Below, in pieces: positions 1 to 44,435 of a DNA stretch of 51,758 nucleotides. The notes beneath the pieces are model-generated. The model did no database searches. It was not told the DNA's origin and worked only from the letters and a program-made list of their open reading frames with translations. Position 1 is the stretch's first letter. Every line of letters begins with the position of its first letter. Source of the stretch: a virus; the IMG/VR virus record IMGVR_UViG_3300025131_000059, positions 1-51,758 of that record; one strand, given 5' to 3'. A program made the position numbers and the translations under genes.

Positions 1-1
1 C

Positions 2-537: not shown

Positions 538-538
538 A

Positions 539-2043: not shown

Positions 2044-2674
2044 GAAATGTCAACGGGCATTTCAGGCTTGGCAAGCGATGGGCTACAGGACAATGGTGCT
2101 TCTCGATGAAGGGATGCCCGAAGTGCCCGCAGCGGATAAGATCCTGTACACGAAGGATTATCAAGGGTGGCCGAAGGCGTTGGGTCAGTTGTGTCGAGAA
2201 GTCGATTCAGATATTGTAGTCACGGGCGGGGATGATATGTTTCCAGATCCATACGTGGTAGCGGAGGAGATCGGTTGGCAGTTTCAAGATGCGTATCCAG
2301 ATTTGTTTGGCGTGATGCAACCTACGGGGGATGATTGGATGAAAGACAAGTTTGGTCATCCTGCCGCAGCGAGGATCTGCGGAAGTCCGTGGTTGGGGCG
2401 GAAGGTTATTGATGAATTGAACGAGGGCAGAGGAGTTTTTTGGCCTGAGTATTTTCATTTTTTTGCTGATGAAGAATTATATGAGGTGACCACCAAGTTG
2501 AGGATCCTCTGGCAACGATCCGATCTTAATCACTATCACGATCACTGGTCACGGCAACGCCGTCAGCGTCCAGTCTATCTCAACAAGGCTCGAGACCATT
2601 GGGACATAGACAAAGCGTTGTTCAACACAAGAAGGGCTGCGGGTTTTCCGCACCACCAGCCAAAGGTGAAATGA
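2006..2674 (+). CDS. GT-A type glycosyltransferase
   Basis: A 222-residue protein with AAGGAG before ATG 2006. IVVTGGDDMFPDP is a DxD-like metal site typical of GT2/GT-A folds, preceded by a short Rossmann-like start (YAIPSANPEKCQRAF). The middle contains an acceptor-loop-like His/Trp-rich stretch with FHFFADEE, in which acidic residues are placed like the catalytic base of GT2 enzymes. It overlaps both neighbours in the cassette. Family assignment is good; the substrate is unknown. Confidence 0.72.
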   Translation: MEVWYAIPSANPEKCQRAFQAWQAMGYRTMVLLDEGMPEVPAADKILYTKDYQGWPKALGQLCREVDSDIVVTGGDDMFPDPYVVAEEIGWQFQDAYPDLFGVMQPTGDDWMKDKFGHPAAARICGSPWLGRKVIDELNEGRGVFWPEYFHFFADEELYEVTTKLRILWQRSDLNHYHDHWSRQRRQRPVYLNKARDHWDIDKALFNTRRAAGFPHHQPKVK

Positions 2675-4361: not shown

Positions 4362-5980
4362 ATGTAGTTGGTATGAGTCTTTTTGTGATACAAGACGAAG
4401 AAAATCAAAGGCCAGATCGTTGGTGGTTCTATTTGAAATTTTTGTCTTCGGTTCTTCGGGCGTTTCCGAATGTTTTTCCTGACTGGGAATTGCACTTGTA
4501 CCATGACGAAAATATCTTTCGTGGATATTATGGATCCACACTCTTTTCATTCGCTCGTCAGCCCAATAGTTTTTTGAAATTGATATACAGCGGAAAAGAG
4601 AATCCAACCTTATGCGAAGGAATGCTTTGGCGATTGCGTCCGATCTGGGAGTCAGATGCTGAGTATGTGTTTTGTCGAGACGTGGATGCGCTTCCGATGC
4701 CTCGAGATCGGTATGCTTGCGAAGAGTTCATTGAGAGCGGTTGGGATGTTCATAGCATCACGGATAATGAAGCTCACGGATCTCCCATCATGGGAGGCTT
4801 GTGCGGGTTTCGTTCTGAAGCCATTCGGGAACTCTGGCCAACGTGGGAGGCTTTTTGCGGAGCTGCGGAAATGGAAAATGAGCACGGAAAGGATCAGATG
4901 TTTTTGCAGCGACATATTTGGAAACATCTCGCCAACAGAGCCATGTCTCATCGGTTCGTCAATCCCAGATCATATGGGGAGAAGCGATTGCGCAGTGAAG
5001 TCTCTCCGAATGTCGCATTGAATGAGACGGTTGTCCGTGATGGTGATAGTTTGAGTCCTTGCCTCGGAGACGGTTTCCAACACACCCCAGCGGTCAAGTG
5101 GTATGATTCTCATTGCGATACGTCTATGATTCAGGAATGCGAAAGACGAACGCACCAAGCGACAATCCAAGACGGCAACCCACCACCAATGAGACGTGTG
5201 GTGTTGTCTTGCAATCTCAACAGAGATTATTCTTTTTTTGCTCCGTTGACTTCGATGCTTTGGAGTGAGCTCACGGATTACATCCCCACGATCATGCTTG
5301 TAGGATCCTGTGAAGAATGGCAGGGATCTGTTTTGAACTGGTCTCGGGAGGCAGGAGCGGAGATTCATTTCATTGATAGGATCGAAGGTTTCAATGATGC
5401 CACCGTTGCGCAGGTGAGTCGATTGTTTGCGTGGCACTTGATATATTATGGGGAGCCATTAGATGAGCGAGTGTATCTGTTGACGAGTGATATGGATCTC
5501 TGGCCTTTGACGGGAGTTCCTTTTCATCGAGAAACTCCCTATGACCATGTCCATTTGTATTATGGAAATGTGTACGCTCACGAACCTGACCCGAAGTATC
5601 CCATTGGGTACATCGGAGCGAAGGTGAGAACATGGCGGCAGATCCTTTCTATGGCTTTGGAAGAGGCGTTGAAAGGCGTTCGAGATGAGGCTGATGGAAT
5701 GAAGGTTTGGTGCTATGATGAATCATTCTTCGGCAAGCGGATTCACGAATGGGAAGGAGAAAAAGAAATCATTGCGAGACGGGGAGCACCGCCAGTTGAC
5801 CGCATAGATCGGAGTTGTTGGCGAGAAATTCAAGCAGGAGATATAGATGCTCATCTGCTCAGGCCAGGTTATTCAGAAGCCAATTGGCCTCGGTTACGGG
5901 AGTTGTTGAGCAAAATCATACCGCACCGAATGGCTTGGTGTGATGAGTATTATGAAACTTTTATGAAGGAGAATTTCTGA
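4358..5980 (+). CDS. two-domain glycosyltransferase
   Basis: A 540-residue protein with two tandem GT-A-like halves. The first has VFCRDVDALPMPRDR (DxD about residue 108) followed by a glycine-rich segment SPIMGGLCGFR. The second, after a Pro-rich linker near residue 277, starts with VVLSCNLNRDYSFF and has LLTSDMDLWPLTG (about residue 361) and YIGAKVRTW. Bifunctional enzymes of this shape add two successive sugars or polymerise a disaccharide. It closes the cassette, beginning in an ATGA overlap and ending in a TGATG overlap with a mini-ORF. I infer a pathway role from the gene order only. Confidence 0.75.
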   Translation: MNVVGMSLFVIQDEENQRPDRWWFYLKFLSSVLRAFPNVFPDWELHLYHDENIFRGYYGSTLFSFARQPNSFLKLIYSGKENPTLCEGMLWRLRPIWESDAEYVFCRDVDALPMPRDRYACEEFIESGWDVHSITDNEAHGSPIMGGLCGFRSEAIRELWPTWEAFCGAAEMENEHGKDQMFLQRHIWKHLANRAMSHRFVNPRSYGEKRLRSEVSPNVALNETVVRDGDSLSPCLGDGFQHTPAVKWYDSHCDTSMIQECERRTHQATIQDGNPPPMRRVVLSCNLNRDYSFFAPLTSMLWSELTDYIPTIMLVGSCEEWQGSVLNWSREAGAEIHFIDRIEGFNDATVAQVSRLFAWHLIYYGEPLDERVYLLTSDMDLWPLTGVPFHRETPYDHVHLYYGNVYAHEPDPKYPIGYIGAKVRTWRQILSMALEEALKGVRDEADGMKVWCYDESFFGKRIHEWEGEKEIIARRGAPPVDRIDRSCWREIQAGDIDAHLLRPGYSEANWPRLRELLSKIIPHRMAWCDEYYETFMKENF

Positions 5981-25247: not shown

Positions 25248-25829
25248 TTATAATCCGATCACTTCCCCAGTTTCCAGCTCTTCGATGTTGGTGACCATAA
25301 TGAATTGAACGCCCATTTCTTTTGACAAGGCTTCCATCATCTCCTTCACCTTTCCTCGGTAGTGAGCGGAAGGAGATTTGAAAGGTTCATCCATCACCAG
25401 CACTCTTCGGCACAAAGGACGTTTGAGCATCATACAGGTCAGACGAAGGGCAAGAGCAGCCACATCCACGCATCCACCTCCCGAGGCCGTCAGCGGATCC
25501 ACTTGCTTTCCGTCACGCTCAAAAACCAGTTGAGCTTCGGTGCGTCCTCGCTTCCGTTCAAATAGGATCCTGAACTCATACGGTTCCTCAAACACCGAGG
25601 ACAAACATCTGCTCACCACACCAGCGATTCGGGCGTGAACTTTCTGTTGGATGCTTTGAGATATGTTTTGAACTATTTCACGAGCCTCTTCCAGCGTTTC
25701 CTTTTCGTGGAGCACGTGATCTCGAGCGTCACGAGCGTCAGCCACGAGTTTTCGAGAGGCTTCATATTCAGCGGAGAGCTGAGTGACTTTATCATTCCAC
25801 TGGGATAGCTGACTGGGGATCTCAGGCAT
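25248..25829 (-). CDS. Rad50/SbcC-like C-terminal half (signature and Walker B)
   Basis: A 193-residue protein; ATG 25829 follows GGAGGAG. Residues about 5-65 are coiled coil. The ABC signature loop appears as LTASGGGCVDVAALALRL (SGGG about 116-119), Walker B as RRVLVMDEPF with D147 and E148, followed by a D-loop-like SPSAHY and, near the end, VTNIEEL. There is no Walker A, which is supplied by the separate protein encoded at 26975-27979. With the Mre11-like gene between them, these pieces should form a recombination nuclease that resects DNA ends. It overlaps the small coiled-coil gene by eight bases. Confidence 0.88.
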   Translation of the reverse strand: MPEIPSQLSQWNDKVTQLSAEYEASRKLVADARDARDHVLHEKETLEEAREIVQNISQSIQQKVHARIAGVVSRCLSSVFEEPYEFRILFERKRGRTEAQLVFERDGKQVDPLTASGGGCVDVAALALRLTCMMLKRPLCRRVLVMDEPFKSPSAHYRGKVKEMMEALSKEMGVQFIMVTNIEELETGEVIGL

Positions 25830-26073
25830 GTAAGATCTCCTCCCATTCGTTCTCGAAAGTCTCCAAAGCGTCATTGAATTCTTTTTGGGCTTGTGCGGTT
25901 TCCTTTTCCATCTGGCGTAGTTTGGTCTTGGCTTCTTTCAAAGTCGCACATCCCGTAGTTTCTTTCAGTTGCTTGAGAAGGAGATCCAGCTGGCCTTTGG
26001 CTTGGTCTTTGTTTCGGGTGAGATCTTCTATTTGTTGCTTGAGTTCTTCGTATCTTTCGACTGCGGTTGTCAT
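25822..26073 (-). CDS. small coiled-coil protein between Mre11 and Rad50 C-half
   Basis: An 83-residue, almost entirely coiled-coil protein (ERYEELKQQIEDLTRN, LLKQLKETTGCATLKEAK) with one Cys near the middle. It starts in an ATGA overlap with the Mre11-like gene and overlaps the Rad50 C-half start by eight bases. Its position and composition suggest it supplies part of the Rad50 coiled-coil arm or clamps the two halves together. This is inference; no domain besides the coil is visible. Confidence 0.75.
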   Translation of the reverse strand: MTTAVERYEELKQQIEDLTRNKDQAKGQLDLLLKQLKETTGCATLKEAKTKLRQMEKETAQAQKEFNDALETFENEWEEILHA

Positions 26074-32755: not shown

Positions 32756-33685
32756 TCAATCCATTTTATCATGAACAACTTCCCAACACGATGCCGTGAG
32801 CCCAGCTTTCTTGCTGTCATAGAAGTTCTGTTGAAAAGCGTAGATGATCCGCCATGCTTTTTCGGCTAGTTTTCCTCCTCCGAGCAGCACAGAGTTTGCA
32901 TATCCCAAAACCAACCATCGAACGCTCTCAGGATCGTCATCCAGTTCCTTGAGAATGCCCGAGATTTTCTGCCAGCTGGGATTTGGAGAAATCAAAGCAC
33001 GAGCCAGTTCAATCGCTTGTGCTTTCATGTCGATATTCTGAATGGCGTTGAGCATTTCTTCGTCATCTTCAATTCCCATTATAGCATTCAAGCTCACCAA
33101 AGCAGAACGGGCGGAACCTTCGGACACCTCCACCAACCGATCCGCACACTCTTCAGTAATGATGATTTGTTCTTTTCGGCAGACGTAGTTGATCAGGCGT
33201 TTCATATCCGTATTCTTCAACAGCTTCACTACGATCTTCGTTGAGCGGGTGTGTATTGTTTTCTTGAGCTTCTGGGGATCGGTAGTGCTCAAAAAGAAAT
33301 AGGCATGAGATGGCGTGTCCTCTAACATTTTCAAAAAGGCATCCTGAGCCTCTCCCGTCATGCGATGGCATTCGTCTATATGCCAGATGCGGCAGGATCC
33401 CGAGATGGGAGACAGACTCAGATGCTTTTGAATGAAACGCACCATATCAATCCCACGCAAAATACTGCAATTGATTTCTTTGAAATCCTGATCGCCGCAG
33501 TCCATTTCTTTTTTCAGGATCCTCGCCAGCGTAGTTTTGCCGCAACCACTTGGCCCAGAGAAGAGGAGCGTGTGAGGCACTCGCTTGTTCTTGATCATCT
33601 CGTTCAATACTTTGACGGGTTCGGGTTGTCCCCAAACTCTTTTGAGGTCAGTGGGTCGATGCTTTTTGTACAATTCAGTTTTCAA
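32756..33685 (-). CDS. DNA polymerase clamp loader ATPase
   Basis: A 309-residue AAA+ protein. I prefer TTG 33685 (AAGGAG six bases before) over ATG 33706, which would overlap the polymerase gene further. ELYKKHRPTDLKRVWGQ, Walker A GPSGCGKTT, Walker B IWHIDECHRM, sensor 1 FFLSTTDPQ and an SRC-like IHTRSTK segment match clamp loader small subunits (DnaX / T4 gp44). It opens the sliding clamp (36281-37300) and loads it for the polymerase encoded beside it. A single loader gene suggests a homomeric motor or unseen partner. Confidence 0.88.
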   Translation of the reverse strand: MKTELYKKHRPTDLKRVWGQPEPVKVLNEMIKNKRVPHTLLFSGPSGCGKTTLARILKKEMDCGDQDFKEINCSILRGIDMVRFIQKHLSLSPISGSCRIWHIDECHRMTGEAQDAFLKMLEDTPSHAYFFLSTTDPQKLKKTIHTRSTKIVVKLLKNTDMKRLINYVCRKEQIIITEECADRLVEVSEGSARSALVSLNAIMGIEDDEEMLNAIQNIDMKAQAIELARALISPNPSWQKISGILKELDDDPESVRWLVLGYANSVLLGGGKLAEKAWRIIYAFQQNFYDSKKAGLTASCWEVVHDKMD

Positions 33686-35066
33686 TTTTGATCTCCTTTT
33701 TGTCATTCCAACTTTGGCCTTCATATGCAATCTCTGCGTCTATTCGTAGAGGCACCGAAATCCATTTCCATTTTCGTGCGAGATCTCGGGTCATTATTTT
33801 CTTTGCGGCAGCGAGATAATCCTGAACTTCATCGACAGGAACGTCAGCCACGATGCTATCATGGATCTGTCCTACAATCTTTGCTCCGCTTCGGTTTCTC
33901 TCGATCCATTTTTGTAACCTCGTCAGGCTCCAAAGCAAACAATGAAAAGCGGATCCCTGAATTGGGGCGTTGATCGCTTCGTTCCTTTTGAAAACTCCGT
34001 TCTCAATGAAGCCAGTCAGCGTCTGCCACCCGCCGTTCTTTTGATATTCACTCCACCACTTCTCTTTCCATTCCGCATATACTTTGAAACGACTGCCCCA
34101 GAAATTTGCTTCAACTTCTTGGATATGTTTTTCAAATGTTCGTGCCTTCGGTTTCTGCTTAGGATCGCAGGCACCCAATCGAGTGATGCCTTGTTCTTTG
34201 AGATGGTCGGTGACCAGCGTTCCGTTCTTCATGCTCAACTTCCCGCTCACGATATGATCCCAGAGATTGCGTGCGCAGTTGATATAGTAGTCTCCATAGA
34301 ATTGCGGGAAGATGAATTTGTTTTTGCCTCCGTATCGTAACTGCTTGGTCACTTGATCGGTGTCCATCATATAGCATTCCGCTGCCATGTCTCGGTGCAT
34401 GTCCAATGAAAGATCTTCTACATAGGCCGTCAACCGAGGATCGTGATGATAGCAACAGGAGATCCCCACTTCAATTCCGCTGTAGTCAAGTTCAACCAGA
34501 GCGTGGCCAACCCGAGGAATGAACGCTTGCCGAATCAGATCGGCAATCCATTCTAACCTGATTGGGATGTTTTGGAAATTAGGTCTTTCACTGCTTCCAC
34601 GGAAGGTGGAAACGAGATGAAGAGAGAAGATTGGGTGAAGAAATCCGTCAACAGTTTCCTTTTGGATTCCGTAGAGGTAGGTGGAGAGTGCTTTTTGTAA
34701 TTTGGAGATCTTGAGAAACCGTTTGACATAAGGGATTGACAAGCTGGAGAGACTTTCCTCATCAGTTCGAGGCCGTCCAGTAGGTGTTCGATTGACGCAC
34801 GCGTGCCCCATGCGATTGAAGAGAACCTCTCCAAGTTGCTCACGGCTGTTGAAGTTGGCACTCCTCCCAAATGTAGTTTTCCAAACTTGAGTGACTTCAT
34901 CTTCTTCAAGAGAGCGGTACAAGTTGGCGATGCGTCTTTTTGTTTTCCCAATAGCTCCTTCGAGATAATCCGTATCAATTCTGATTCCATTGGATTCGAT
35001 CCTGCTGAGGGTTTGGAGTCCTTCGTGAAGTAGTTTGTACGCTTCGGGGGTGGTGGCTCTACTCAT
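33675..35066 (-). CDS. family A DNA polymerase, polymerase domain only
   Basis: A 463-residue protein lacking any exonuclease domain. TFRGSSERPNFQNIP, motif A VELDYSGIEVG (D194), motif B/O-helix around RYGGKNKFIFPQFYG, and motif C VGQIHDSIVADVP are all present. It starts inside the last codons of the exonuclease/UDG gene (eight-base overlap), so the two are translationally coupled and probably work as one holoenzyme. The O-helix has an insertion between the Arg and the Phe-Tyr-Gly compared with typical Pol I. About 80 residues between motifs B and C are Trp/Lys-rich. Confidence 0.92.
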   Translation of the reverse strand: MSRATTPEAYKLLHEGLQTLSRIESNGIRIDTDYLEGAIGKTKRRIANLYRSLEEDEVTQVWKTTFGRSANFNSREQLGEVLFNRMGHACVNRTPTGRPRTDEESLSSLSIPYVKRFLKISKLQKALSTYLYGIQKETVDGFLHPIFSLHLVSTFRGSSERPNFQNIPIRLEWIADLIRQAFIPRVGHALVELDYSGIEVGISCCYHHDPRLTAYVEDLSLDMHRDMAAECYMMDTDQVTKQLRYGGKNKFIFPQFYGDYYINCARNLWDHIVSGKLSMKNGTLVTDHLKEQGITRLGACDPKQKPKARTFEKHIQEVEANFWGSRFKVYAEWKEKWWSEYQKNGGWQTLTGFIENGVFKRNEAINAPIQGSAFHCLLWSLTRLQKWIERNRSGAKIVGQIHDSIVADVPVDEVQDYLAAAKKIMTRDLARKWKWISVPLRIDAEIAYEGQSWNDKKEIKIEN

Positions 35067-36288
35067 GACATTTTCCCGTTTGGAGTTTGGAGATCCGTTC
35101 CATTTGTATTTGCGCCAGTTTGTATTCTAGCAACGCATCCATTCCATTATACAAAAGCAGATCCGTCAAGTTGATCTGATTTATTTTGTTGAACTTGCTT
35201 TCGGCGGAGTCTTTGAGATAAGGTTGAATGTGATCGTCATAAGGAGGCTGTCCCAGTTGGACGTAGGATTGAAACTTGAGTCCAGTGACTCCCGCCTGAT
35301 TGTTCAGTACATGAGCGGCAAGCATCGTGTCCCATTTCCAATTCTTGACTTCCACTCCGAGGATCTTCTGTGTCCACCGATCCTCGAACTTCAAGTTGGC
35401 TGCAATCTTTCCGCAATCACTTTGTAGAAGTTCTTGGGTTGCTTCAATCACTTCTCCCATCCACGGGAAGGCAATTGTTTTGGTTCCTCCCGTACAAACT
35501 GCGCATGAATATATTCTGGCTCCTTTGTATTCGGGCTTCAAGCAGTTCGTCTCATAATCAAAAGCAATATCATCCCCCAGTAGGATCCATTGACGAAGAA
35601 GGCGTGCAGCTTCTTCGGGATCGTGAATGATGCGTATTTCTTTTTGGAGGTCAGGGATCTTTTCCCACGGTTTGGAATGTCTCTTTTTGATAGCGGATCT
35701 CAAGTGCTTCCGAAACCAGAGTGCCAATCCTCGGTTGCGTTCTTCTTCGAGAAGCTGCCACGGGTGATAAGTAGGAACGATCCATGCGTTGGGATTTTGC
35801 GAAGGAACAATGAACCCAGCCCACTTGGTAGTTGGGCCAGGCGATTCCTTCCAAGTGTGTCCGATGAGACTTTGGATGGCGGTGTTTCCGAGAAGAACGA
35901 CAACGGTGGGTTTCTTTTCTTCGATGACTTGGAACAGGTTGCCACGACAACATAGGATCTCTGCACCGTTCGGCGTTCGTCCTTTCGGTGGACGACATCG
36001 CACTGCGTGAGTTCGCCAACAGTCCTTGTCCAGATGAACGCCCAAAGAGGTGAGTGTTTTTCGTAGGAGCAATCCTGCCTCTCCGCCGAACGAGTCGTGG
36101 TTGGCATCTTCTTTTTGATCAGGAGCTTCACCCACGATCAATATGCTTTTGTCTCCTTCACCTACCATCGGCATTTTAGGACAGGCGCATGAACGAGACA
36201 ACCCGCATTTCCCGCAGAGAGGAACTTTGCTCAATGGTCGGTCATTCGTTTGTAGTAGTTCGGACGTTGTCCAGAATCCCTTACTCAT
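35059..36288 (-). CDS. uracil-DNA glycosylase fused to 3'-5' exonuclease
   Basis: A 409-residue two-domain protein; ATG 36288 overlaps the clamp stop. Residues about 20-205 are a family 4-type UDG: CGKCGLSRSCACP and CCRG provide iron-sulfur cysteines, GEAPDQKED (53-61) is the catalytic loop, VLLGNTAIQSL and TYHPWQLL the later motifs. Residues about 225-405 are a DnaQ/Pol I-type proofreading domain: IAFDYETN (Exo I), ANLKFEDRWT (Exo II) and GMDALLEYKLA (Exo III). It would remove uracil and polymerase errors. SPO1-type phage polymerases carry UDG-exo-pol in one chain; here the chain is split before the polymerase domain. Confidence 0.88.
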   Translation of the reverse strand: MSKGFWTTSELLQTNDRPLSKVPLCGKCGLSRSCACPKMPMVGEGDKSILIVGEAPDQKEDANHDSFGGEAGLLLRKTLTSLGVHLDKDCWRTHAVRCRPPKGRTPNGAEILCCRGNLFQVIEEKKPTVVVLLGNTAIQSLIGHTWKESPGPTTKWAGFIVPSQNPNAWIVPTYHPWQLLEEERNRGLALWFRKHLRSAIKKRHSKPWEKIPDLQKEIRIIHDPEEAARLLRQWILLGDDIAFDYETNCLKPEYKGARIYSCAVCTGGTKTIAFPWMGEVIEATQELLQSDCGKIAANLKFEDRWTQKILGVEVKNWKWDTMLAAHVLNNQAGVTGLKFQSYVQLGQPPYDDHIQPYLKDSAESKFNKINQINLTDLLLYNGMDALLEYKLAQIQMERISKLQTGKCHE

Positions 36289-37300
36289 CCTCAATGACTC
36301 CCAGATACGTCACGAACACATAACTGCCGTTGTCCACTTTCAACGCCTTCTCGGATACTTCGCACTTGTTGAATCGGTTCGTGATGTCGGAAAGGAGTTT
36401 GGGAGAGATCATGAATTCCAACGCTCGTCCTTTGTAGGAGGTGGGGCGGGTTTCGGTGTAGCTGCCGTTTGGGCCATCACCCGTGATTCGGATCCGCTTG
36501 GGTCTCATGTCCACTTTGACTTCGTTGTGTTCTTCTTCTCTGCTGAAAACCTCGGCACGCTCCGCCATCTCAGTAAGTGCTTTGGGAAGTTTGACGGGAT
36601 CTCCTGACACATCCAACACTTTGTCCATCGGCGGGAAATCTTCGGCATATTGCCGACAGCTGAGGGTGAGTCCTTTTTTATTTCGGAAGTGAATCCAACT
36701 CTCCGTTATCGCCCACTCATACATTACAGCTCTGCCAACTTCTTTCATTGCTTCGTGACGAACCAAAATTGACTTGTCCAATCCCGTGTCCATAGCGTAT
36801 CGAGTGATTTGGAAGTTGTCGCACGCTTCGATCCATTTGGGAGCGACATGAACGCACGTCAATGAGAAGTGACTCTCATCGGTACTGGCTGACTGACGAA
36901 CGAGATCCACCGCTTGACTGAATCCTTCGGGAATGTCCAACCATTCATCCTTCTTCTTCGGTACGTCCACCACGTCAATACCCAAGAGGATTTCGCTTTC
37001 CATTCTGATGCGCACTTCCTTCCGCTTCCCTTTGATGATGAGTGATCCTTCTTCCGTATCCAGCATCAATTTCTCATCGCTGATTTTATGAAGGACATCA
37101 ATGAGTGGACGGGCTTGTACAGCTCCTTCGATGTCACCCACGTCACATTTGTAAGAGCATGCAACCTCGTCATTGTACGTGAACACCCGTTTGTTTTTGA
37201 AAACCACGCAGCTGCTTTGCTCTACAATATCACGGGCGTTCAATCCTGGTGCCACGTTCTCCAATTGCGCCAACAGTTCTTCTCTGTCCACTTGATTCAT
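36281..37300 (-). CDS. sliding clamp (DnaN-like)
   Basis: A 339-residue protein from ATG 37300 (GAAAGGA upstream; earlier in-frame starts have no site). It shows the repeating beta-clamp style: an N-terminal helix with DREELLAQLENV, RPLIDVLHKISDEKLML, KGKRKEVRIRM, FSQAVDLVRQSAS and LTLSCRQYAEDFPPMDKVL. It forms a ring that tethers the polymerase. Its order beside the UDG-exo, polymerase and clamp loader genes supports the call. Sequence similarity to cellular DnaN looks distant. Confidence 0.8.
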   Translation of the reverse strand: MNQVDREELLAQLENVAPGLNARDIVEQSSCVVFKNKRVFTYNDEVACSYKCDVGDIEGAVQARPLIDVLHKISDEKLMLDTEEGSLIIKGKRKEVRIRMESEILLGIDVVDVPKKKDEWLDIPEGFSQAVDLVRQSASTDESHFSLTCVHVAPKWIEACDNFQITRYAMDTGLDKSILVRHEAMKEVGRAVMYEWAITESWIHFRNKKGLTLSCRQYAEDFPPMDKVLDVSGDPVKLPKALTEMAERAEVFSREEEHNEVKVDMRPKRIRITGDGPNGSYTETRPTSYKGRALEFMISPKLLSDITNRFNKCEVSEKALKVDNGSYVFVTYLGVIEDE

Positions 37301-37313
37301 TTTCGATGTCCTT

Positions 37314-38081
37314 TCATCTGTTTGTGTATATGGTAGCAACCCGTGCTGGGTTGAGTCTCTTCTTGTAAGTTTCCAATCCACGCTGTCCCAGATCTCCTCC
37401 GTCATTGACGAGCGGAGGATGATCTTTGAACCACTGGGCGTTTCGATAAAAGCACAAACGCAAAAACGCTTGCGCACACGGTTCTCCGTTGTCGATACAA
37501 AATCGGAAGTTGGTGAACCTCCAATTGTAATCAGCCACGTTCATTCCGATGAGATTGTCATCGCCATCGAGCAAAATCCAGCGGTGGTTTCCGTTGAGAA
37601 CGTAGTCCACCAAGATGTCTGGATCATAGATAGAGTCTTTGCGATCCGCCCACGCCATCAATAGCGTTTCGATCTTCTCATCCAGAGTGGATCCGAGCAC
37701 GCTCATGGGAACATATTGAAGGTCAGAATGAGCACGCAAAAAGGTGTTCGTGTTTTTTCGGAAGTTTGCCCAGCGTTGACCGCTCAAGTCGCAAAGAAAT
37801 TCTTCATGGCGGTAGATGTACTGACGATCCAACGCCTCTCCTTCGGACGCATCCAAGAAGCTGCTCCACCATTTGGCTCCTGTATGAATCAAAACATTCT
37901 CTTCCTCGAACAGCGGAGGAAAGAACCAACCGCCATCGTCATCGGTGTAACCGCTCAAGTGTCCCAGACGTGTCCAGACCAATCCTTTGCGCTCAATGTA
38001 TTCATCGCTGACCCAAAAGTTCGGTTCAATCTTCTTCTGTCTCAGGTGGAGCCAATAGGTTGAATCCTTTTTTCTTTCCAT
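37314..38081 (-). CDS. GNAT/DUF2156-like acyltransferase-related protein
   Basis: A 255-residue protein from ATG 38081; a GTG at 38147 with GGAGG upstream is an alternative but would overlap a small gene over its whole extension. The C-terminal end VNDGGDLGQRGLETYKKRLNP is typical of GNAT-fold DUF2156-like proteins found in phages. FRKNTNTFLRA and WILLDGDDNLIGMNVADYNWR fit the same fold. Members transfer acyl or aminoacyl groups to small molecules or nucleotides. It lies five genes from the radical SAM/PLP/amidoligase group and could join the same pathway. Confidence 0.6.
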   Translation of the reverse strand: MERKKDSTYWLHLRQKKIEPNFWVSDEYIERKGLVWTRLGHLSGYTDDDGGWFFPPLFEEENVLIHTGAKWWSSFLDASEGEALDRQYIYRHEEFLCDLSGQRWANFRKNTNTFLRAHSDLQYVPMSVLGSTLDEKIETLLMAWADRKDSIYDPDILVDYVLNGNHRWILLDGDDNLIGMNVADYNWRFTNFRFCIDNGEPCAQAFLRLCFYRNAQWFKDHPPLVNDGGDLGQRGLETYKKRLNPARVATIYTNR

Positions 38082-38184
38082 CACTTTTGCCTTTGCTTCC
38101 TTTGCTTGTTCCGAAGCGTTTGTTTTTGATTTTGCTAATGAGGGCACGGCTCACGCCTCCGCTCTTTCTACTTTTTCCGCCCAT
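38026..38184 (-). CDS. small basic protein
   Basis: A 52-residue Gly/Lys/Ser-rich protein read directly. ATG 38184 lies three bases after the previous stop with AAAGGA upstream; the stop is TGA 38028-38026. The body (MGGKSRKSGGVSRALISKI) is basic and the end acidic (LLAPPETEED). It overlaps the start of the GNAT-like gene in another frame, and which of the two extends through 38081-38147 decides that gene's start. Function unknown. Confidence 0.55.
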   Translation of the reverse strand: MGGKSRKSGGVSRALISKIKNKRFGTSKGSKGKSDGKKKGFNLLAPPETEED

Positions 38185-38187: not shown

Positions 38188-38937
38188 TCATTCATCCTTT
38201 CCCAGCTCGTCATATACGCATAAACCAATCACGCATTCCATCGGGAAGCGTTTGTCTGTGCTTTCGATCCATGCGATGTTCTTATCAAAACTCCATTCCA
38301 GATTATCCGCAAAAGCGTACAACGCAGCGAAGTCCTGCGTGCGGATCCCGATGGGCTCGAACTCATCCAACTCTTGCGATGCTACGGCGTTCAATCCCAC
38401 GCTCTCTTTTTTCGTGATGGTGATGATTGAACCTGAATAAATATCTCGCTGGACAATACGCAATTTGCCTTTGCGTGCGGAGAACTCGATGTGGCTCAGG
38501 TTCTCGTCCAGTAGTTTGAACAGATCGGATCCCAAGATCACGCTGTTGCCTTCGGGCTTCTCGAATTTTTCAAAAAGACTCCGCACATTGTCAGGCGTTC
38601 TTTCGGGAGTCTTACAAGATTTGGTCTTGGTGTATTTGTCGGTGCGGGTAATGAATTTGATGCGGCCACCTTCCTCGAGAAACTCCTTGGATTCATAGTC
38701 ATCCGCTCGGAAGGAGACGGGAGAAGCAAAGGTTGAATCCTGCTTCCTCAAAGGGAAATGAATCAGCACCGTAGAGTCCTGATTGAGAATGAAAATCTTT
38801 TTGTTCAAGCAATAGATCGTATTGCGCAACCTCCCGTTCTGCGTCAATGCGGCAGCGTGTGAAAAGATGTCTTCCACGGTCTGATTGATTTTGGTGTTTC
38901 TTTTTTTCTTCGCTGCCTTCTTTTTCTTTTTGGCCAT
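38188..38937 (-). CDS. hypothetical protein, Lys-rich start
   Basis: A 249-residue protein with AAAGGA before ATG 38937. A highly basic leader (MAKKKKKAAKKKRNTK) is followed by a beta-rich body with VILGSDLFKLLDENLSHIEF and KLRIVQRDIYSG. The alternating beta pattern is faintly clamp-like, and it lies two genes from the sliding clamp, but no family can be claimed. The basic leader suggests DNA contact. Confidence 0.6.
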   Translation of the reverse strand: MAKKKKKAAKKKRNTKINQTVEDIFSHAAALTQNGRLRNTIYCLNKKIFILNQDSTVLIHFPLRKQDSTFASPVSFRADDYESKEFLEEGGRIKFITRTDKYTKTKSCKTPERTPDNVRSLFEKFEKPEGNSVILGSDLFKLLDENLSHIEFSARKGKLRIVQRDIYSGSIITITKKESVGLNAVASQELDEFEPIGIRTQDFAALYAFADNLEWSFDKNIAWIESTDKRFPMECVIGLCVYDELGKDE

Positions 38938-38938: not shown

Positions 38939-40354
38939 TTATAATCCTTTTATGATGTCTTCAAGTATCCGCTCTCTGAAATCGGTGTCTTTGTATTTCC
39001 AAACCAATGAACCTTCATCGGTTCCCGCCACGTGCATTCCTCTTGACCAGCTGTGGGAGTAGGCACTTTGGTTCCCTTCAGTATTCCAAAGTGCCTTCAC
39101 ATCCCTGTACAACGCTGCACTCAAAAAGCCTCCGTGTTTGTTGACGTAGTTGACGAAGTTTTTCCATGATGTCGGTTTGCCTTTTCGTTTTTGAATATAA
39201 CGAGCTGCAGTGACAGTGCATCCATAATTGAATCCGCCTCGGAACCAATCACCAACCTCGCAACATACCATCTGATTATTGTCGGGAGCATTTCCCATAT
39301 CGAACGTGGAACAAGAGAAACCTCGCTCACGAAACATCTGCATGAACTTTCCCAATAGCAAACTTCCCGCTGCTTGCGAGTCGCACCCGAGGAGAAACAA
39401 TCTGTCCCAATCGTATCCCATGTTATGAAAACTTTGCCTGATGCCAGGATTCTTTGCGGTGTATGAATAGGTGTCGAAGGTTATATGACGACAACCGATT
39501 TCCCAAACATCTTTCATGTATTGTTCCACGTCCTCTTTTTTGTCGTTCAGAAAAACCAAGAACGGTTCAATGCGAGGCACCACACGCACGCCAGCTTTCA
39601 CGAGTTTCTCCATTGCACGCAATCGTCTGCGATACGAAGGTGCGCCAGGTTCCAGTTCTTTCAGGAACTCATTGTCAGAAGAAATCAAAGTCATATGAAC
39701 AGCTGCTCGTCCTGCGTTACGTGCGAGTGCCTCCACATAATCGTCTCGACCAACCAAAGCACTTTTGGTGTTTATCATTACAGGATAAGAAATGTCAGCG
39801 AGATACTCCAGAAGTTCCAAGCTGATTCCTTTTTCTTTTTCATCATCGAGAAAGTCCTCAAAGCGGATCCCGAACCTCATTGGAATTTCCAAGCCTATGG
39901 CTTTGGCTACGGCGGCACCCGAAGCGAAGGAGTGAGGATCCTTTCCACGGTTCTTCATAAGCACATCCAGTTCCTTTTTATACATGGTGGCATTACAATG
40001 ACGGAACCCCATTGTTTTGGAATTGTCGAAGAAGGCCGTGTACAAACTCGCTCGAAAGGCATTGGCGTAGCAATACTTGCAACCGAACGGGCAGAGCAAT
40101 CCATCCCACGTATCAATATTCAGAGGCATCGGACACGCCTGAGCACGGCACGATACTTCTACGAAACTGTTCAGCTCTTCGAGGTTCAGGAGACGTTCCT
40201 GAGGGATCCATTTACTCTCGGTGAGTTTGAATTCTTGGTATTGAGTTTTGCGTCCTTTCTCTTTGACGGGTTGGATCTTTCCTTTCTCGTCAACGAGTTT
40301 GCGAGTGCGTGGGATCACGTTCGCAACTATGGATCTCAGTTCATAATAATCCAT
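38939..40354 (-). CDS. radical SAM protein, SPL/Rv2578c-like (first copy)
   Basis: A 471-residue protein. ATG 40354 (AAGGG five bases before) is preferred to GTG 40360. CPMPLNIDTWDGLLC leads into CPFGCKYCYA, the CX3CX2C iron-sulfur site (about C88, C92, C95). MRFGIRFEDF and LLEYLADISYPVMINTKSAL follow, as in the spore photoproduct lyase/Rv2578c group that acts on DNA or nucleotides, although the usual T-D-P-Y-Q motif is degenerate here. It would cleave S-adenosylmethionine to a 5'-deoxyadenosyl radical. It is a paralogue of the protein at 42680-43744. The C-terminal 170 residues hold more cysteines and may bind a second cluster. Confidence 0.85.
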   Translation of the reverse strand: MDYYELRSIVANVIPRTRKLVDEKGKIQPVKEKGRKTQYQEFKLTESKWIPQERLLNLEELNSFVEVSCRAQACPMPLNIDTWDGLLCPFGCKYCYANAFRASLYTAFFDNSKTMGFRHCNATMYKKELDVLMKNRGKDPHSFASGAAVAKAIGLEIPMRFGIRFEDFLDDEKEKGISLELLEYLADISYPVMINTKSALVGRDDYVEALARNAGRAAVHMTLISSDNEFLKELEPGAPSYRRRLRAMEKLVKAGVRVVPRIEPFLVFLNDKKEDVEQYMKDVWEIGCRHITFDTYSYTAKNPGIRQSFHNMGYDWDRLFLLGCDSQAAGSLLLGKFMQMFRERGFSCSTFDMGNAPDNNQMVCCEVGDWFRGGFNYGCTVTAARYIQKRKGKPTSWKNFVNYVNKHGGFLSAALYRDVKALWNTEGNQSAYSHSWSRGMHVAGTDEGSLVWKYKDTDFRERILEDIIKGL

Positions 40355-40356
40355 GG

Positions 40357-40860
40357 TCACCCTTCCATCATCTTTTTTACTTCGGGCAATTCTTTGTTAT
40401 TGTTCAGAACAGCTTTTGTGAAAGGCTTGACGTGATCTTTCAATTGGTATCCCGTTCGGTGACAGTCTTTCATAAGGGTGTCCAATTTGGATGCGGTCTT
40501 TTCATAGAAGTTTGGATCACCTTTTCCGAGTTTTGGAACGAGGCCAAAACCTTTTTTTGATTTCTTCCCCTCTTTCTGTTCGGCAATCATATCCAGCAGG
40601 ATCATCCCAGCTGCGTAGTTGCTTTTTGCCGCCAGTAGTGTGTGGGCAACAGTTGAGTCCTTGTCATCTTCTCGTTTTATCACGCAGTGGTTTTTGTTTT
40701 TGTAGATGTGTCCGAACTTTGTTCTGTCTTCCACGTTTGAAAAGACATGCGTGTTCTTCCTATTGACTTTCAGATCGCCAAAAGGCAAAAAGCCATCCAC
40801 GCCTTCAAACACAAGGGATTCCACACGTGTCGCTTTCATACTATATTTTGATCCTGACAT
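40357..40860 (-). CDS. hypothetical protein
   Basis: A 167-residue basic protein between the radical SAM and amidoligase genes, with SD GAAGGAG before ATG 40860 and the promoter element at 40882 just upstream. It contains FEGVDGFLPFGDLKVNRKN, KSNYAAGMILLDMIAEQ and a Lys/Pro-rich C-terminus. No motif is recognised. Since its own promoter seems to drive it and the following radical SAM gene, it may be a dedicated partner in the cluster. Confidence 0.6.
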   Translation of the reverse strand: MSGSKYSMKATRVESLVFEGVDGFLPFGDLKVNRKNTHVFSNVEDRTKFGHIYKNKNHCVIKREDDKDSTVAHTLLAAKSNYAAGMILLDMIAEQKEGKKSKKGFGLVPKLGKGDPNFYEKTASKLDTLMKDCHRTGYQLKDHVKPFTKAVLNNNKELPEVKKMMEG

Positions 40861-40881
40861 TTTTATTTCTCCTTCTGTCTT

Positions 40882-40894
40882 ATTATAGATTGAT
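40882..40894 (-). promoter_or_regulatory. early promoter element, copy before 40860 gene
   Basis: Minus-strand AATCTATAATAAG (TATAAT at 40887-40882) followed by ACAGAAGGAGAAAT and the ATG at 40860. It shares 12-13 bases with three other right-arm copies. Confidence 0.65.
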
Positions 40895-40914
40895 GATATC
40901 GAAACAATCTGACT

Positions 40915-41826
40915 TTATGGAATAAGGTGCTCAAAACCTTCCGAACCTATCGCATCAAATGTTCCGTCCAGTATTTTCCTGATGTTCTCTTCTATGACAT
41001 CACGTTTGTTTTTCGTAATGGATGTCGCATGCCATCTTTTTTCTTTCCAACCCACGAAGGGTTCTGTTTTCGGTAGTTCTTTTATTTTGTACGTGTTGTC
41101 AAATAGTTGTCTGATGTTTCCGTTGTCTAATGCGCATAGCAAATAATCTCGGCACCAGTGGATCGCATTCAAAACTTCTTCTGGATTCACTGAGGCGGAG
41201 AAATGACGAAACTCTATTGTGTCTGTTTGTAGAAGTTGGCGGAGACTGATTGCCGCCCGAGGTTGAGCGTGCCATAGTGGGCTCCCTTTTTTGCTTTGCG
41301 GAACTTCTAACTCAAAGAACCTTTTGATTGATTTGGCTTGTAGTTGTTTTTGTACTCGGTTTATTGGAATGGAAGTCCAGTGACTCATTCTCATCCACCG
41401 CTGACGTTTCACCGCTTCTTTGTGTTCTCGGGCAGATGGGAAATCGAAGCGAGTGGGAATGGGCAACGGATCCACATGATGATAAATGTCGGTGTTTTCC
41501 GATATGAATTTTTGGATCTTTTTCAGAACGTCCAAGTTGTCTTTCAATCCTGGCATGCGAATGTGAACATGCAAACCCGCTCGATGAGTCGCCACCGCTC
41601 TCGGGTGCTTCTTCAAAAACTTTTGAAGGAGTTTGATTTGTTCCTCGGGTGTTTCCGTTGCGGGTGTATTGATTTCTCCTCCAAATGGATAGCTCTTCAG
41701 GGAAGGATCCGTTGCGATCCCGTTACTGTTACAAGCGTTTGGTTCTGGATCTCTTCCGAAACCTTCCCAACCTTTCCGAGTATCCCAATCACCGAACTCG
41801 TGCTCACAACCGTATGTCCATTTCAT
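40915..41826 (-). CDS. amidoligase (glutamine synthetase-like carboxylate-amine ligase)
   Basis: A 303-residue protein; ATG 41826 is in an ATGA overlap with the PLP-enzyme stop, with AAGGAG seven bases before. YGCEHEFGDW (metal-binding E-x-E/H-E start), YPFGGEINTPA, AGLHVHIRMPG and a late DTIEFRHFSAS match the amidoligase_2 family of glutamine synthetase-like COOH-NH2 ligases. They activate a carboxylate with ATP and join it to an amine, typically attaching amino acids or amines to small molecules, peptides or cell-wall parts. Coupling to a PLP enzyme and radical SAM gene suggests it charges or consumes a modified amino acid. Confidence 0.85.
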   Translation of the reverse strand: MKWTYGCEHEFGDWDTRKGWEGFGRDPEPNACNSNGIATDPSLKSYPFGGEINTPATETPEEQIKLLQKFLKKHPRAVATHRAGLHVHIRMPGLKDNLDVLKKIQKFISENTDIYHHVDPLPIPTRFDFPSAREHKEAVKRQRWMRMSHWTSIPINRVQKQLQAKSIKRFFELEVPQSKKGSPLWHAQPRAAISLRQLLQTDTIEFRHFSASVNPEEVLNAIHWCRDYLLCALDNGNIRQLFDNTYKIKELPKTEPFVGWKEKRWHATSITKNKRDVIEENIRKILDGTFDAIGSEGFEHLIP

Positions 41827-42683
41827 ATCCATTCTCCTTCATGGCCTATATTCCAAAACAAAATCGGTTCTTCAATTGGTCGGTGCGTTCTCATAAGCCA
41901 CTGCCACGCCTTGCGGTCATAGAAAGCATGACACGGAAAAGGGCAAGGCTCCTCGGATCGTTCGGTGTACTCCCATCCCAAGTCAACCAATTTCAAATTC
42001 TTTCTTTTAATTCCAGTGATCCCGCCTTCCACCTTTTTGGCTTTGAAAAGGATCTTCTTTTTTTTCTGAATGACGTTTCCTGTCCGACACATAATGCCGA
42101 ACGCCTTGCAGCCTTCGGGAAGTTTCCTCAACAGTCCAGCAAAGATTGTTCCCGATCCTACGCAACACACCACCGTCCGAAGAGTGATCTTTTTCAGAGT
42201 CCTTTGAAACTCTCTAGCGGTTTCGTGAATCGTCTGTTCCAAAGGCAATCCCAAGTCCAGCATCTCCGCTTCTTTTCCAAACTCGTTCCGCAATCTTTTT
42301 CTACAGATATGATAATTCACTCTTGCCATTCCCGCTTCCACTTTGCGGATCGTGGCGTTGCACTTCTTCCAGTGCTTCCGATGGATCTTCAGAACCTCAT
42401 GCGGTTCTTTGTATTGAGGATCGTATATGACGGCCTGTAAGCCAAGTTGTTGGCACGCCCATGCAACTCCCCATCCAGCCATGCTGATGCTCGTCTCGGT
42501 GTATCCTACCACGCGCAATCCCTTTTCCTTCCGCTCGGATAAGTAAGTATACACGCCTCTCATTTTGCTGAATGGCGGGGATCCTTCTGGCCCGCAGAGA
42601 TCTTCCCGCTTGACGTGGATGGTTCTGCCTCCTGCTTCGTAGGTTTCAATGGGGGTGTTTTTTCTCATCGTCAGTTTCGTCAT
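41823..42683 (-). CDS. PLP-dependent enzyme (ACC deaminase/D-cysteine desulfhydrase-like fold)
   Basis: A 286-residue fold-type II PLP protein; ATG 42683 overlaps the radical SAM stop (ATGA), GGGAG upstream. HVKREDLCGP and PPFSKMRGVYTYL place the likely Schiff-base lysine at K40. SISMAGWGVAWACQQLGLQ is the substrate/Asn-loop region. CVGSGTIFAGLL (GSGT 176-179) is the phosphate-binding loop. Family members eliminate, replace or deaminate amino acids. It lacks the usual S-N-H after the first loop, so the reaction may differ. The gene lies between an amidoligase and a radical SAM gene with overlaps on both sides, strongly suggesting a shared pathway. Confidence 0.82.
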   Translation of the reverse strand: MTKLTMRKNTPIETYEAGGRTIHVKREDLCGPEGSPPFSKMRGVYTYLSERKEKGLRVVGYTETSISMAGWGVAWACQQLGLQAVIYDPQYKEPHEVLKIHRKHWKKCNATIRKVEAGMARVNYHICRKRLRNEFGKEAEMLDLGLPLEQTIHETAREFQRTLKKITLRTVVCCVGSGTIFAGLLRKLPEGCKAFGIMCRTGNVIQKKKKILFKAKKVEGGITGIKRKNLKLVDLGWEYTERSEEPCPFPCHAFYDRKAWQWLMRTHRPIEEPILFWNIGHEGEWI

Positions 42684-43744
42684 AACACTCCCGCATCTTT
42701 CATAGTATAGAAGTCACCCTTTTTTCCCGTCAGTATTTTCAAGCCTTCTTCTTTGTTTCCAATCCCTTCCCATGTGGTGTTCTCGATGTGTTCTTTGTCG
42801 TGTCCTGCTTGTAGCATACTTTTCCAATAGTGAGTATTGAAGAGGGACGGGTTGGGCACGTTGATTCCGCAGCAGGTGTTCGCTTGTTCTTTCCAATCGG
42901 ATCCCGTGTTCACAAAATCAGGACACCCCAAACGGATCCCCACGTCATCGGCAATCTCGCATAATTTCTTTTGGATCTTCCGCCAAGGCCGATCCTGATT
43001 CATCGTCCAGATCTTCTCGATGTCCAATCCAATTGAATGGAACCGTTTGGCTACGTGGTCATTGAGATGAAGATTATATGTATTGTAGCTCTCCACGCCG
43101 ATGTCTTTCAACCTGAGCAGGAGATCTCGGAACTGTTCGGTGGTATGCAATCCTGGAATGAAGGGTTCACCGTTGACTCCCACAGCATATCCTGTTCGCA
43201 CCCAGCGTCTCATTATGCGGAACCGCTTGTCAATGGGCGTGGTTCTTTTTCGTTCCAGCGTTTCCCAATCCCATTCGGCGCCAGGAGAAATCACGGGCAT
43301 CACCGTGAGTAGTTTTTTGTCTCGAGCTTCTTGAAGAAGAGGTTCGCACAAAACCAAGTTCCCGAGGAAGTGGGTTTGAATTACGAACGTCCAATTCAAA
43401 TCTATCAAGTGCTGAAGGATCCGCATGGATACTTTGTGTTTGATTTCGGCGGGTTGGAAAGGATCCGTTTTGTTGCCGAAGCGTATTGTTTTTTTGAGGC
43501 GGAGTGCGTTTGCCAAACTGGTTTTGGGATTCTTGTTTTTCAATCCCGCTTCCAGCTTTCGGCGGATCTGTTCGGGATCCGCTGGCCGAAGATCTTGCCC
43601 CCACGTCCGATTCAACTTGCGCAAATAGCAATGGTGGCAATCCGCTTCGCAGTTCCAATAACTGTCAATAGAAAAAGGCAGTGGACAATAGAGGCAATCA
43701 CCTCTAATGCCCACTGCCGATTTGTATGTTTTGGTGTCTGCCAT
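42680..43744 (-). CDS. radical SAM protein, SPL/Rv2578c-like (second copy)
   Basis: A 354-residue protein from ATG 43744, immediately after the H1-like stop; no strong SD, so coupling is likely. CLYCPLPFSIDSYW leads into CEADCHHCYL, the CX3CX2C cluster site (C32, C36, C39). RFGNKTDPFQPAE is the T-D-P-x-Q motif of the SPL/Rv2578c group, followed by LQHLIDLNWTFVIQTHFL. The shared C-P-x-P-x-x-I-D then CX3CX2CY layout makes it a paralogue of the 38939 protein. It has extra cysteines in the C-terminal part (TCCGINVP). A radical reaction on a nucleotide or amino acid is expected. Confidence 0.85.
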   Translation of the reverse strand: MADTKTYKSAVGIRGDCLYCPLPFSIDSYWNCEADCHHCYLRKLNRTWGQDLRPADPEQIRRKLEAGLKNKNPKTSLANALRLKKTIRFGNKTDPFQPAEIKHKVSMRILQHLIDLNWTFVIQTHFLGNLVLCEPLLQEARDKKLLTVMPVISPGAEWDWETLERKRTTPIDKRFRIMRRWVRTGYAVGVNGEPFIPGLHTTEQFRDLLLRLKDIGVESYNTYNLHLNDHVAKRFHSIGLDIEKIWTMNQDRPWRKIQKKLCEIADDVGIRLGCPDFVNTGSDWKEQANTCCGINVPNPSLFNTHYWKSMLQAGHDKEHIENTTWEGIGNKEEGLKILTGKKGDFYTMKDAGVL

Positions 43745-43745: not shown

Positions 43746-44369
43746 CTACAGAGCAACAACTTTCCCGACAACACGAGCGTTGTCACCATCGACTTCAATG
43801 AGGCCGAGGATTTGGCATTCCAACATTACGCGTTTTGTATGCCAGACAGCTTCTTTGTCGTTTCCACGGCCTCCGTGCGCCATGTACTCTTCGTTGGTCT
43901 TTTCTGCGATCTCGTTGACCGTGAATTTCTTTTTCTTCAGGTTGGCAATCGCTTCAATGATCAACTTCTGACGTGTTGGTTTCTTCTTCGCAACTTTCTT
44001 CGCAGTTTTCTTCGGTTCGGGTTCCTTTTTCTTTGCTGCTTTTTTCGCTGCCTTCTTCGCAACTTTCTTCGCAACTTTCTTCGCAGTTTTCTTCGGTTCG
44101 GGTTCCTTTTTCTTTGCTGCTTTTTTCGCTGCCTTCTTCTTCACGGGTTTCTTATCTTCTACGATCTCCAAGGCATTGCCTTCGCTGATCGTGATCTCGA
44201 TGTCCTCCAGATTGGTGCGCTGTTCTTCATTCAGCTTTTCGAGGTCAGTGTCCTCGCTCTTGGCGAGAACTTTACATTTGTTGGCCAGCTGGGTGTCACT
44301 CCATTTGTAGGCCGTTCCATATCCTAATGCCGTGAAAATTTCAACAACTTCTTTTTTAGTGATAATCAT
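43746..44369 (-). CDS. histone H1-like / nucleoid-binding protein
   Basis: A 207-residue protein; ATG 44369 follows AAGGAG. It has three parts: a helical N-terminal domain (about 1-70), a central Lys/Ala/Pro tract with a 27-residue repeat (KKEPEPKKTAKKVAKK), and a C-terminal winged-helix-like domain (LIIEAIANLKKKKFTVNEI, LECQILGLIEVDGDNARVV). The central tract is the AlaLys-rich DNA-coating type seen in bacterial H1-like proteins. It probably compacts or coats DNA or regulates transcription. Confidence 0.78.
   Translation of the reverse strand: MIITKKEVVEIFTALGYGTAYKWSDTQLANKCKVLAKSEDTDLEKLNEEQRTNLEDIEITISEGNALEIVEDKKPVKKKAAKKAAKKKEPEPKKTAKKVAKKVAKKAAKKAAKKKEPEPKKTAKKVAKKKPTRQKLIIEAIANLKKKKFTVNEIAEKTNEEYMAHGGRGNDKEAVWHTKRVMLECQILGLIEVDGDNARVVGKVVAL
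43986..44139 (-). repeat. 81-bp tandem repeat in H1-like gene
   Basis: Two nearly identical copies, 43986-44058 and 44067-44139, have a period of 81 bp (27 codons) and encode the Lys/Ala/Pro tract. The near-identity at DNA level indicates recent duplication or ongoing conversion. Confidence 0.9.
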
Positions 44370-44422
44370 TTTTGGTCTCCTTGTGTTAGTGTTTTTGATT
44401 GTCACGTTTTTGCTTCCGTCTT

Positions 44423-44435
44423 ATTATAGATCAAA
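44423..44435 (-). promoter_or_regulatory. early promoter element, copy before H1-like gene
   Basis: Minus-strand GATCTATAATAAG (TATAAT at 44428-44423) followed by ACGGAAGC; TTGATA lies 15 bases before the -10. It sits in the gap between 44470 and 44369 and would drive the H1-like, radical SAM, PLP and amidoligase genes. Confidence 0.65.

Follow-up and report, generated by a model that had tools for sequence, protein, structure and literature searches.

What a bacterial virus might make with a glutamine synthetase (GS)-like amidoligase, a pyridoxal phosphate (PLP) enzyme and two radical S-adenosylmethionine (rSAM) proteins encoded side by side, and on which molecule, is the question raised by a block of genes in the virus record IMGVR_UViG_3300025131_000059 (IMG/VR). 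The stretch analysed, called the window here, covers positions 1 to 51,758 of that record. The block lies on the minus strand, from 44405 to 37314, in the order U0, rSAM-A, PLP enzyme, amidoligase, U1, rSAM-B, U2 and GN, and is followed by genes for a sliding clamp, a uracil-DNA glycosylase (UDG)-exonuclease and a polymerase. A preliminary description, made from the sequence alone, had proposed that the block makes a modified amino acid or amine and joins it to a base, a peptide or a polymer. The loci of the homologues support the view that these genes form a unit and that amino-acid or amine chemistry is likely, and they favour a DNA base as the target, while falling short of proof. The block is therefore read here, with a probability of about 0.6, as a DNA-base hypermodification array that would be independent of a transferase and would include an amide-capping amidoligase.

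Profile searches found rSAM-B at 76 viral loci and rSAM-A at 32. A total of 98 fetched loci hold rSAM-B, and 59 of these are distinct at 90% identity. Families were defined by Louvain clustering of the longest non-overlapping open reading frames (ORFs) from flanking DNA of at most 10 kb, and the presence counts are hence lower bounds; some of the 59 arrays are on contigs truncated close by, seven of them upstream. With rSAM-A (46 of 59) and rSAM-B as its core, the array further holds U2 (54) and GN (53), has the clamp (52), DnaB (48), PolA (43) and the UDG-exonuclease (32) as replication neighbours, and is mostly located between DnaB and the clamp and polymerase genes. A variable slot holds a PLP enzyme in 27 arrays, a methyltransferase-like gene in 12, an aldo-keto reductase in 11, DUF362 in seven, a flavin lyase in three and the amidoligase in one; at least one named tailoring gene was present in 44 arrays and none in 15. 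As both rSAM genes are conserved in tens of other viral contigs, a chance neighbourhood was rejected. The neighbourhood search called for in the preliminary description thus returned co-occurrence, and not homologues that never co-occur. The counts for GN and U2 also place in the array the GNAT-like gene and its preceding unknown gene, for which membership had been suggested as possible.

The known route to hypermodified thymidine sets out from 5-hydroxymethyluracil and uses a kinase together with an amino acid:DNA transferase (ADDT). Among the 59 arrays, a thymidylate synthase (TS) was clustered in two, and ADDT and kinase in none. Profiles for ADDT and HMUDK_hel matched none of the 21 rSAM-B records of at least 50 kb (20 viruses, L100 and L110 being one virus) and both of two positive controls, and the TS profile matched three of the 21, one of them weakly and with internal stops, and both controls. 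No match was obtained in G000 or in its sister contig G001, which extends the window, for ADDT (PF18724; phage M6 positive at 2.3e-48 and phage Simon at 2.2e-16) or for the 5-hydroxymethyldeoxyuridine (5-hmdU) DNA kinase and its helical domain (PF18748/PF18723; M6 and Simon positive), the PF18748 test being confined to these two contigs. A TS-like hydroxymethylase (PF00303) was not found in G001, and window positions 183-5323, which lie outside G001, were viewed as ORFs and partly Pfam-scanned. The absence of the TS, kinase and transferase genes of the known pathways, as first described, was thus reproduced, for PF00303 in G001 only. Given these negative front-end profiles, the block does not encode a plain 5-hmdU pathway by the available tests. 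The protein encoded at 25248-25874 was considered as a kinase and rejected, as it is an SbcC-like ATPase by eye, matches phrog_15167 ('ATPase') and belongs to no kinase family. A Tet_JBP search was uninformative because no control matched.

Some of the later steps of the known pathways are represented. The PLP enzyme (41823..42683, minus strand) matches PF00291 at 2.5e-12 (47.2 bits against a cut-off of 35) and carries K40 within the motif PPFSKxRG, in which S39, K40, R42 and G43 are each conserved in at least 93% of 31 sequences. By these features it is a fold-type II (PALP) enzyme with a conserved Schiff-base lysine, K40. It belongs by sequence to the same family as phage M6 gp052, to which it is 35.8% identical, and matches phrog_7093 at 4e-47. 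A search of 50,697 phage records gave 66 with a homologue; 53 of these are Pseudomonas phages, with M6 as the top match. The earlier label 'ACC-deaminase-type' is fair at the level of the fold, but the nearest relatives found are M6-type phage PLP enzymes; ACC deaminase and threonine dehydratase were accordingly rejected as the function, the PDB sequence matches also being weak (0.0045). In an unrooted tree, three PLP enzymes from transferase contexts group with five from arrays (support 1.000), and because the tree has no outgroup, no direction of exchange is claimed. The DNA of M6 contains 5-(2-aminoethyl)deoxyuridine (PMC6449724), and the M6-type cassette comprises a hydroxymethylase, Nmad5, aGPT-Pplase1, a kinase, an rSAM protein, a PLP enzyme and aGPT-Pplase2 (PMC9476957).

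A second tailoring family, the flavin lyase, likewise occurs both in transferase systems and in the rSAM array. The array flavin lyase of L124 has as its best PDB match (1.2e-28) the same 'Flavin-dependent lyase', 8z2o/8z79, that the flavin protein of amidoligase locus L021 matches at 1.9e-74. These two proteins were the only ones compared with the PDB; the others were named by their similarity to the protein of phage Simon. We take 8z2o/8z79 to be the entries of Wen 2024, from a title in a reference list, and the roles of rSAM isomerase, PLP decarboxylase and flavin lyase reportedly go back to Lee 2022. Flavin lyase is present in 18 of the 50,697 phage records. The amidoligase is the third family shared in this way, found once in the array. 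That these tailoring families are shared, and that their base rates among phages are low, is the chief reason for thinking that the array reaches a similar base-borne amino-acid intermediate through another entry.

The amidoligase (40915..41832, minus strand) matches PF12224 at 4.5e-7 (30.4 bits against a cut-off of 22). Eight residues (E10, E12, E53, H90, R192, T205, E207 and R209) do not vary among the 18 aligned sequences, which rules out a broken enzyme, and the predicted model (mean predicted local distance difference test, pLDDT, 90.7) has structural matches in YbdK, glutamate-cysteine ligase and GS (Z 8.4 to 10.3); rows of the alignment used for the model are match ranges, several of which lack the ends. 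By profile, conserved Glu/His/Arg site and predicted fold, the protein is thus a member of the GS-like family, and the active site, which it had been proposed to check by structure prediction, is intact. A PDB sequence search with the amidoligase profile gave no credible match. A three-sequence profile detected 20 IMG/VR loci, of which 17 are distinct after L022, L025 and L026 were merged with L021, L024 and L027 (99.9-100% identical), with L013 being the window virus. Two of the 50,697 phage records (Simon, PQ683277, and Vibrio phage 2.275.O) bring the total to 19 loci, and no plasmid record matched.

A putative amine-making enzyme was identified in 16 of these 19 loci, belonging to the flavin-lyase family in 11 (Simon, L015-L018, L021, L023, L024, L027, L031 and L032), the PLP family in three (L014, L019 and the window) and QueF in two. 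Flavin lyase, PLP decarboxylation and QueF would each leave a primary amine on a base, and with this product as the common denominator an amine is the likely acceptor of the ligase. The ADDT family is present in 16 of the 19 loci, and transferase, kinase, HMUDK_hel and TS occur together in 13. L014 has the order HMUDK_hel-HMUDK-rSAM-ADDT-PLP-amidoligase-HAD-TS (HAD by eye), with the PLP gene directly ahead of the amidoligase gene as in the window, and L019 has a PLP/rSAM pair about 7 kb from the amidoligase. The pairing of amidoligase and PLP enzyme, which the preliminary description did not recognise, is thus also found, together with an rSAM protein, in these two thymidine-hypermodification clusters with kinase, transferase and hydroxymethylase. 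In a tree of 18 sequences, in which L017 of the 19 loci is not included, the window amidoligase pairs as sister with that of L014 (support 0.999), and the one from L019 joins next (0.608); both come from PLP-containing clusters. A low-molecular-weight (LMW)-phosphatase-like gene accompanies 15 of the 19 (L015-L021, L024, L027-L032 and L004). Loci L028-L030 carry a transferase-family gene (PF18724 at 4.1e-19 in L028, to which those of L029 and L030 are similar at 4e-104 and 1e-51) and a kinase-like gene (PF18748 at 1.2e-8 in L028, and by eye in L029 and L030, at 5e-5 and 0.026 against that of L028). A class-II glutamine amidotransferase-like gene is also present in L028-L030 (PF13522 in L028; cut by the contig end in L030). 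In L020 and L005 (Vibrio phage 2.275.O), the amidoligase family is found among queuosine/7-deazaguanine genes near QueF, and this context suggests acylated preQ1 in DNA.

The rSAM-A gene (42680..43744, minus strand) encodes a CX3CX2C motif at C32/C36/C39, and C20, C274 and C291-C292 are also conserved. The PF04055 score is above the cut-off for rSAM-B (35 bits; 38939..40360, minus strand) and below it for rSAM-A (12.2 bits). Membership of the radical SAM superfamily is assigned on the CX3CX2C motif of both and on the homology of rSAM-A to the profile-positive rSAM-B. The two aligned in hhalign at 97.1% from four and three sequences and at 99.7% (E 1.2e-26) from 53 sequences each, and the rSAM-B profile picked up rSAM-A at 6e-12; as judged from these alignments they are paralogues, as had been noted earlier. 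An additional Cys precedes the cluster motif by 11 to 13 residues in 53 of 55 distinct rSAM-A and 53 of 59 distinct rSAM-B sequences, and the pattern C-x(11-13)-CX3CX2C is common to rSAM-A, rSAM-B and three M6-type rSAM proteins. The alignment of rSAM-A with the M6-type rSAM covers 254 columns (96.4%). When 19 further hypermodification or amidoligase records were searched at E 0.001, the rSAM-B profile found no true rSAM-B, its sole match (1.9e-8) lying inside the M6-type rSAM gene of L014. The M6-type rSAM is thus related to those of the array at the level of the superfamily and the Cys pattern, and is not an orthologue by sequence.

The predicted model of rSAM-B (mean pLDDT 81.1) was built from 30 of the 42 first-listed alignment rows, L046 and L075 being dropped for stops in range and L055, L058, L068, L079, L083, L085, L086, L091, L104 and L109 being left out unchecked. 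The first match of the model, in Foldseek and in a second aligner, is spore photoproduct lyase (Z 15.0, 14% identity, 258 residues, root mean square deviation 3.9-4.0), an enzyme that acts on thymine in DNA and repairs a thymine dimer. The modelled fold and the shared Cys pattern together fit a chemistry on thymine in DNA. PDB sequence searches with the rSAM-A, rSAM-B and M6-type rSAM profiles returned no credible match. Among the 50,697 phage records, rSAM-A had no match and rSAM-B two weak partial ones; rSAM-B also matched in two short contigs from metagenome-assembled genomes. No published description of the rSAM-A/rSAM-B array was found, though an account in Lee 2022, Wen 2024 or Iyer 2013 is possible.

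The following scheme, in which each catalytic step is inferred, would connect these enzymes. Acting on DNA near the replication machinery, rSAM-A and rSAM-B would place an amino-acid side chain on a base by radical coupling or rearrangement, the likeliest site of attachment being the 5-methyl group of thymine, which would bypass the 5-hmdU/kinase/transferase route. The PLP enzyme, by homology with the M6 family, would remove CO2 from the base-borne amino acid and so leave a primary amine, for example 5-(2-aminoethyl)deoxyuridine. The amidoligase, given its intact GS-like site and the loci of its family, would activate a carboxylate with ATP, perhaps that of an amino acid, and join it to this amine, and the resulting amide-capped base could block restriction enzymes. 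GN may add another group or act in arrays that lack the amidoligase, and U2, which shows a weak similarity to the clamp (below), may tether the system to it. A more specific version, which we put forward as tentative and rather doubtful, is a decoration free of hydroxymethyl intermediates, in which twin rSAM proteins resembling spore photoproduct lyase would couple an amino acid directly to the methyl carbon of thymine and enzymes of a swappable slot would tailor it in dozens of phages; the amidoligase would cap the amine here, and other members of its family would do the same to the base-borne amines of thymidine and 7-deazaguanine systems. Were the amino acid glycine, a single coupling step would lead to the proposed substrate of the M6-type PLP enzyme.

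Several observations weigh against the assignment as a transferase-independent hypermodification array. The alignment of rSAM-B with the M6-type rSAM extends along 95 columns only (96.4%), M6's own rSAM was not reached by the rSAM-B profile at E 0.001, and spore photoproduct lyase exceeds SuiB in the fold match by less than one Z unit. The amidoligase and the rSAM array occur together in the window virus alone (1 of 59 arrays, and none of 21 other large rSAM-B records), and more than half of the arrays have no PLP gene. The LMW-phosphatase-like gene was not seen in the window, nor in L014, L023 or L005. GN resembles lipid and peptidoglycan aminoacyl transferases, which would suit another target, and GS-like amidoligases of other phages have been assigned to peptidoglycan modification (PMC11945000). 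What was observed comprises the genes with their motifs and fold classes, the conserved array and the tailoring families that it shares with other systems; which base is modified, what the rSAM proteins do and which acid is donated are inferred from these observations.

Three other explanations were weighed against the same data. The block might modify another base, such as 7-deazaguanine or cytosine, with the array still making a base-borne amine that the amidoligase caps. QueF in two of the 19 amidoligase loci and a published cytosine system with an amide ligase, CmoX/CmoY (PMC12783734), speak for this; however, no QueF was found in G000 or G001, the homologues of the PLP enzyme and the flavin lyase are known from thymidine pathways, and CmoY is described there as an asparagine-synthetase homologue, whereas the amidoligase here has a GS-like fold, so that we regard this explanation as unlikely. 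Alternatively, the block might belong to a 5-hmdU-derived pathway of the ordinary kind, with a kinase, a transferase and a hydroxymethylase that either escape recognition through divergence or are supplied by the host. L014 and L019 are complete pathways with homologous PLP enzyme and amidoligase, and TS was matched in some large rSAM-B records, but the ADDT and HMUDK_hel negatives reported above, in G000 and G001 as in the large records, with the controls positive, make this quite improbable.

In the last explanation, the target is the cell wall or the lipids of the host, for which the block would supply a modified amino acid or peptide; GN would transfer an aminoacyl group and the amidoligase would form a peptide-like bond there. 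This would agree with the weak LPG_synthase_C match of GN and with a LUZ24-like phage module of GGCT, ATP-grasp and amidoligase predicted to modify peptidoglycan (PMC11945000). That module shares a phage amidoligase with the window, but its GGCT and ATP-grasp partners were not found among the Pfam-scanned window proteins, and a peptidoglycan module of this type was rejected. The array moreover adjoins replication genes in most of the 59 arrays, and the tailoring enzymes that it carries belong to the repertoire of DNA hypermodification. A cell-wall or lipid target is thus judged improbable to a marked degree.

The genes of the block are coupled, as first described. The PLP and rSAM-A genes overlap by ATGA (TTATGAC), and the amidoligase and PLP genes do so if the second ATG of the amidoligase (41826) is used, the first giving an overlap of 10 nt; the ATGA coupling of the three genes is thereby confirmed. 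The two promoter elements proposed earlier correspond to exact copies of CTATAATAAGAC on the minus strand, at 44418..44429 ahead of U0 and at 40877..40888 ahead of U1 and rSAM-B. With up to two mismatches, seven sites occur in the window against 1.72 expected, and seven were reached in none of 100 shuffles. The start of rSAM-B is either GTG (40360), which overlaps U1, or ATG (40354). U0 (43746..44405), a lysine-rich protein preceding rSAM-A, is clustered in 29 of the 59 arrays, and U1 (40357..40860), a small protein without assigned function, is confined to the window virus among the loci clustered. U2 (38188..38937), also without assigned function, matched no Pfam family and shows a weak hhalign similarity to the sliding clamp of the array (71.6%, E 3.5e-5). 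GN (37314..38147) is GNAT/LPG_synthase_C-like (PF09924 at 5.6e-5, below its cut-off) and had no match in the 50,697 phage records; it is a possible acyl or aminoacyl transferase, as judged by this similarity. The genes downstream encode the clamp-like protein (36281-37300, with the ORF listed to 37477; phrog_947 at 3.7e-37), the UDG-exonuclease (35059-36294; PF03167 and PF01612) and a family-A polymerase (33675-35066) with similarity to the M6 polymerase region; all these genes are likewise on the minus strand. The UDG-superfamily domain adjoins the polymerase exonuclease at 35059-36294 and is, by eye, fused to the polymerase in L029:7736-10333.

G001 is 99.98% identical to the window along a 16.9-kb stretch, and together they amount to about 64.6 kb with matching ends. 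Since window positions 1-182 are repeated at the end of G001, the genome is about 64.6 kb and circular or permuted. Near the head genes, at 1405-5980 on the plus strand, is a sugar-transfer-like run (Nucleotid_trans, PS_pyruv_trans, a GT2-like gene and two without family), for which virion, host-surface or DNA glycosylation is possible from the families present.

Elsewhere, the six uncut arrays without rSAM-A all have DUF362; in L042, L068, L079, L104, L107 and L109, DUF362 replaces rSAM-A, often with a second rSAM-B-like gene. Intein-like insertions at the CX3CX2C cysteines of rSAM-B were read by eye from translations, for example at the first Cys in L089, L093, L095, L099, L113 and L124 and at the third in L087, L097, L111 and L125. 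In L035:11919-14397, the rSAM-B gene with such an insertion is split across two frames, and in several intein-like loci an HNH-like gene lies between the rSAM-B halves. A PAPS-reductase-like gene was seen by eye near some arrays (L035:16547-17425 and L089:799-1602).

Among known systems, the 5-(2-aminoethyl)deoxyuridine pathway of phage M6 (gp051-gp058) is similar in its PLP enzyme of the same family, its rSAM protein with the same upstream Cys pattern and its position beside replication genes. It differs in having a transferase, a kinase, HMUDK_hel (by profile) and an annotated thymidylate synthase, and was unmatched by the amidoligase search, whereas the window virus has two other rSAM proteins and the amidoligase. 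The flavin-lyase thymidine-hypermodification clusters resemble the block in that a homologue of the amidoligase (42% in Simon) lies close to an amine-making enzyme, but include ADDT, kinase and TS in 11 of 11 and the LMW-phosphatase-like gene in 10 of 11, none of which was found in the window virus. Spore photoproduct lyase, the nearest solved fold to the rSAM-B model, is a repair enzyme, whereas rSAM-B is proposed to build a modification. CmoX/CmoY forms 5-carboxymethylcytosine and then a glycine amide (PMC12783734). There too, as predicted here, an ATP-dependent ligase makes an amide bond on a base, but the base bears the acid and the amine is added, whereas here the base is thought to bear the amine.

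The amidoligase may offer the laboratory a ligase of a new kind, acting on DNA or on amines. An array that keeps some of the later enzymes of hypermodification without the 5-hydroxymethyluracil, kinase and transferase steps implies another entry chemistry, probably radical, which would extend to no fewer than 59 distinct viral contigs. The amidoligase loci further suggest a general rule, that base-borne amines are capped by amide formation, which predicts new bases.

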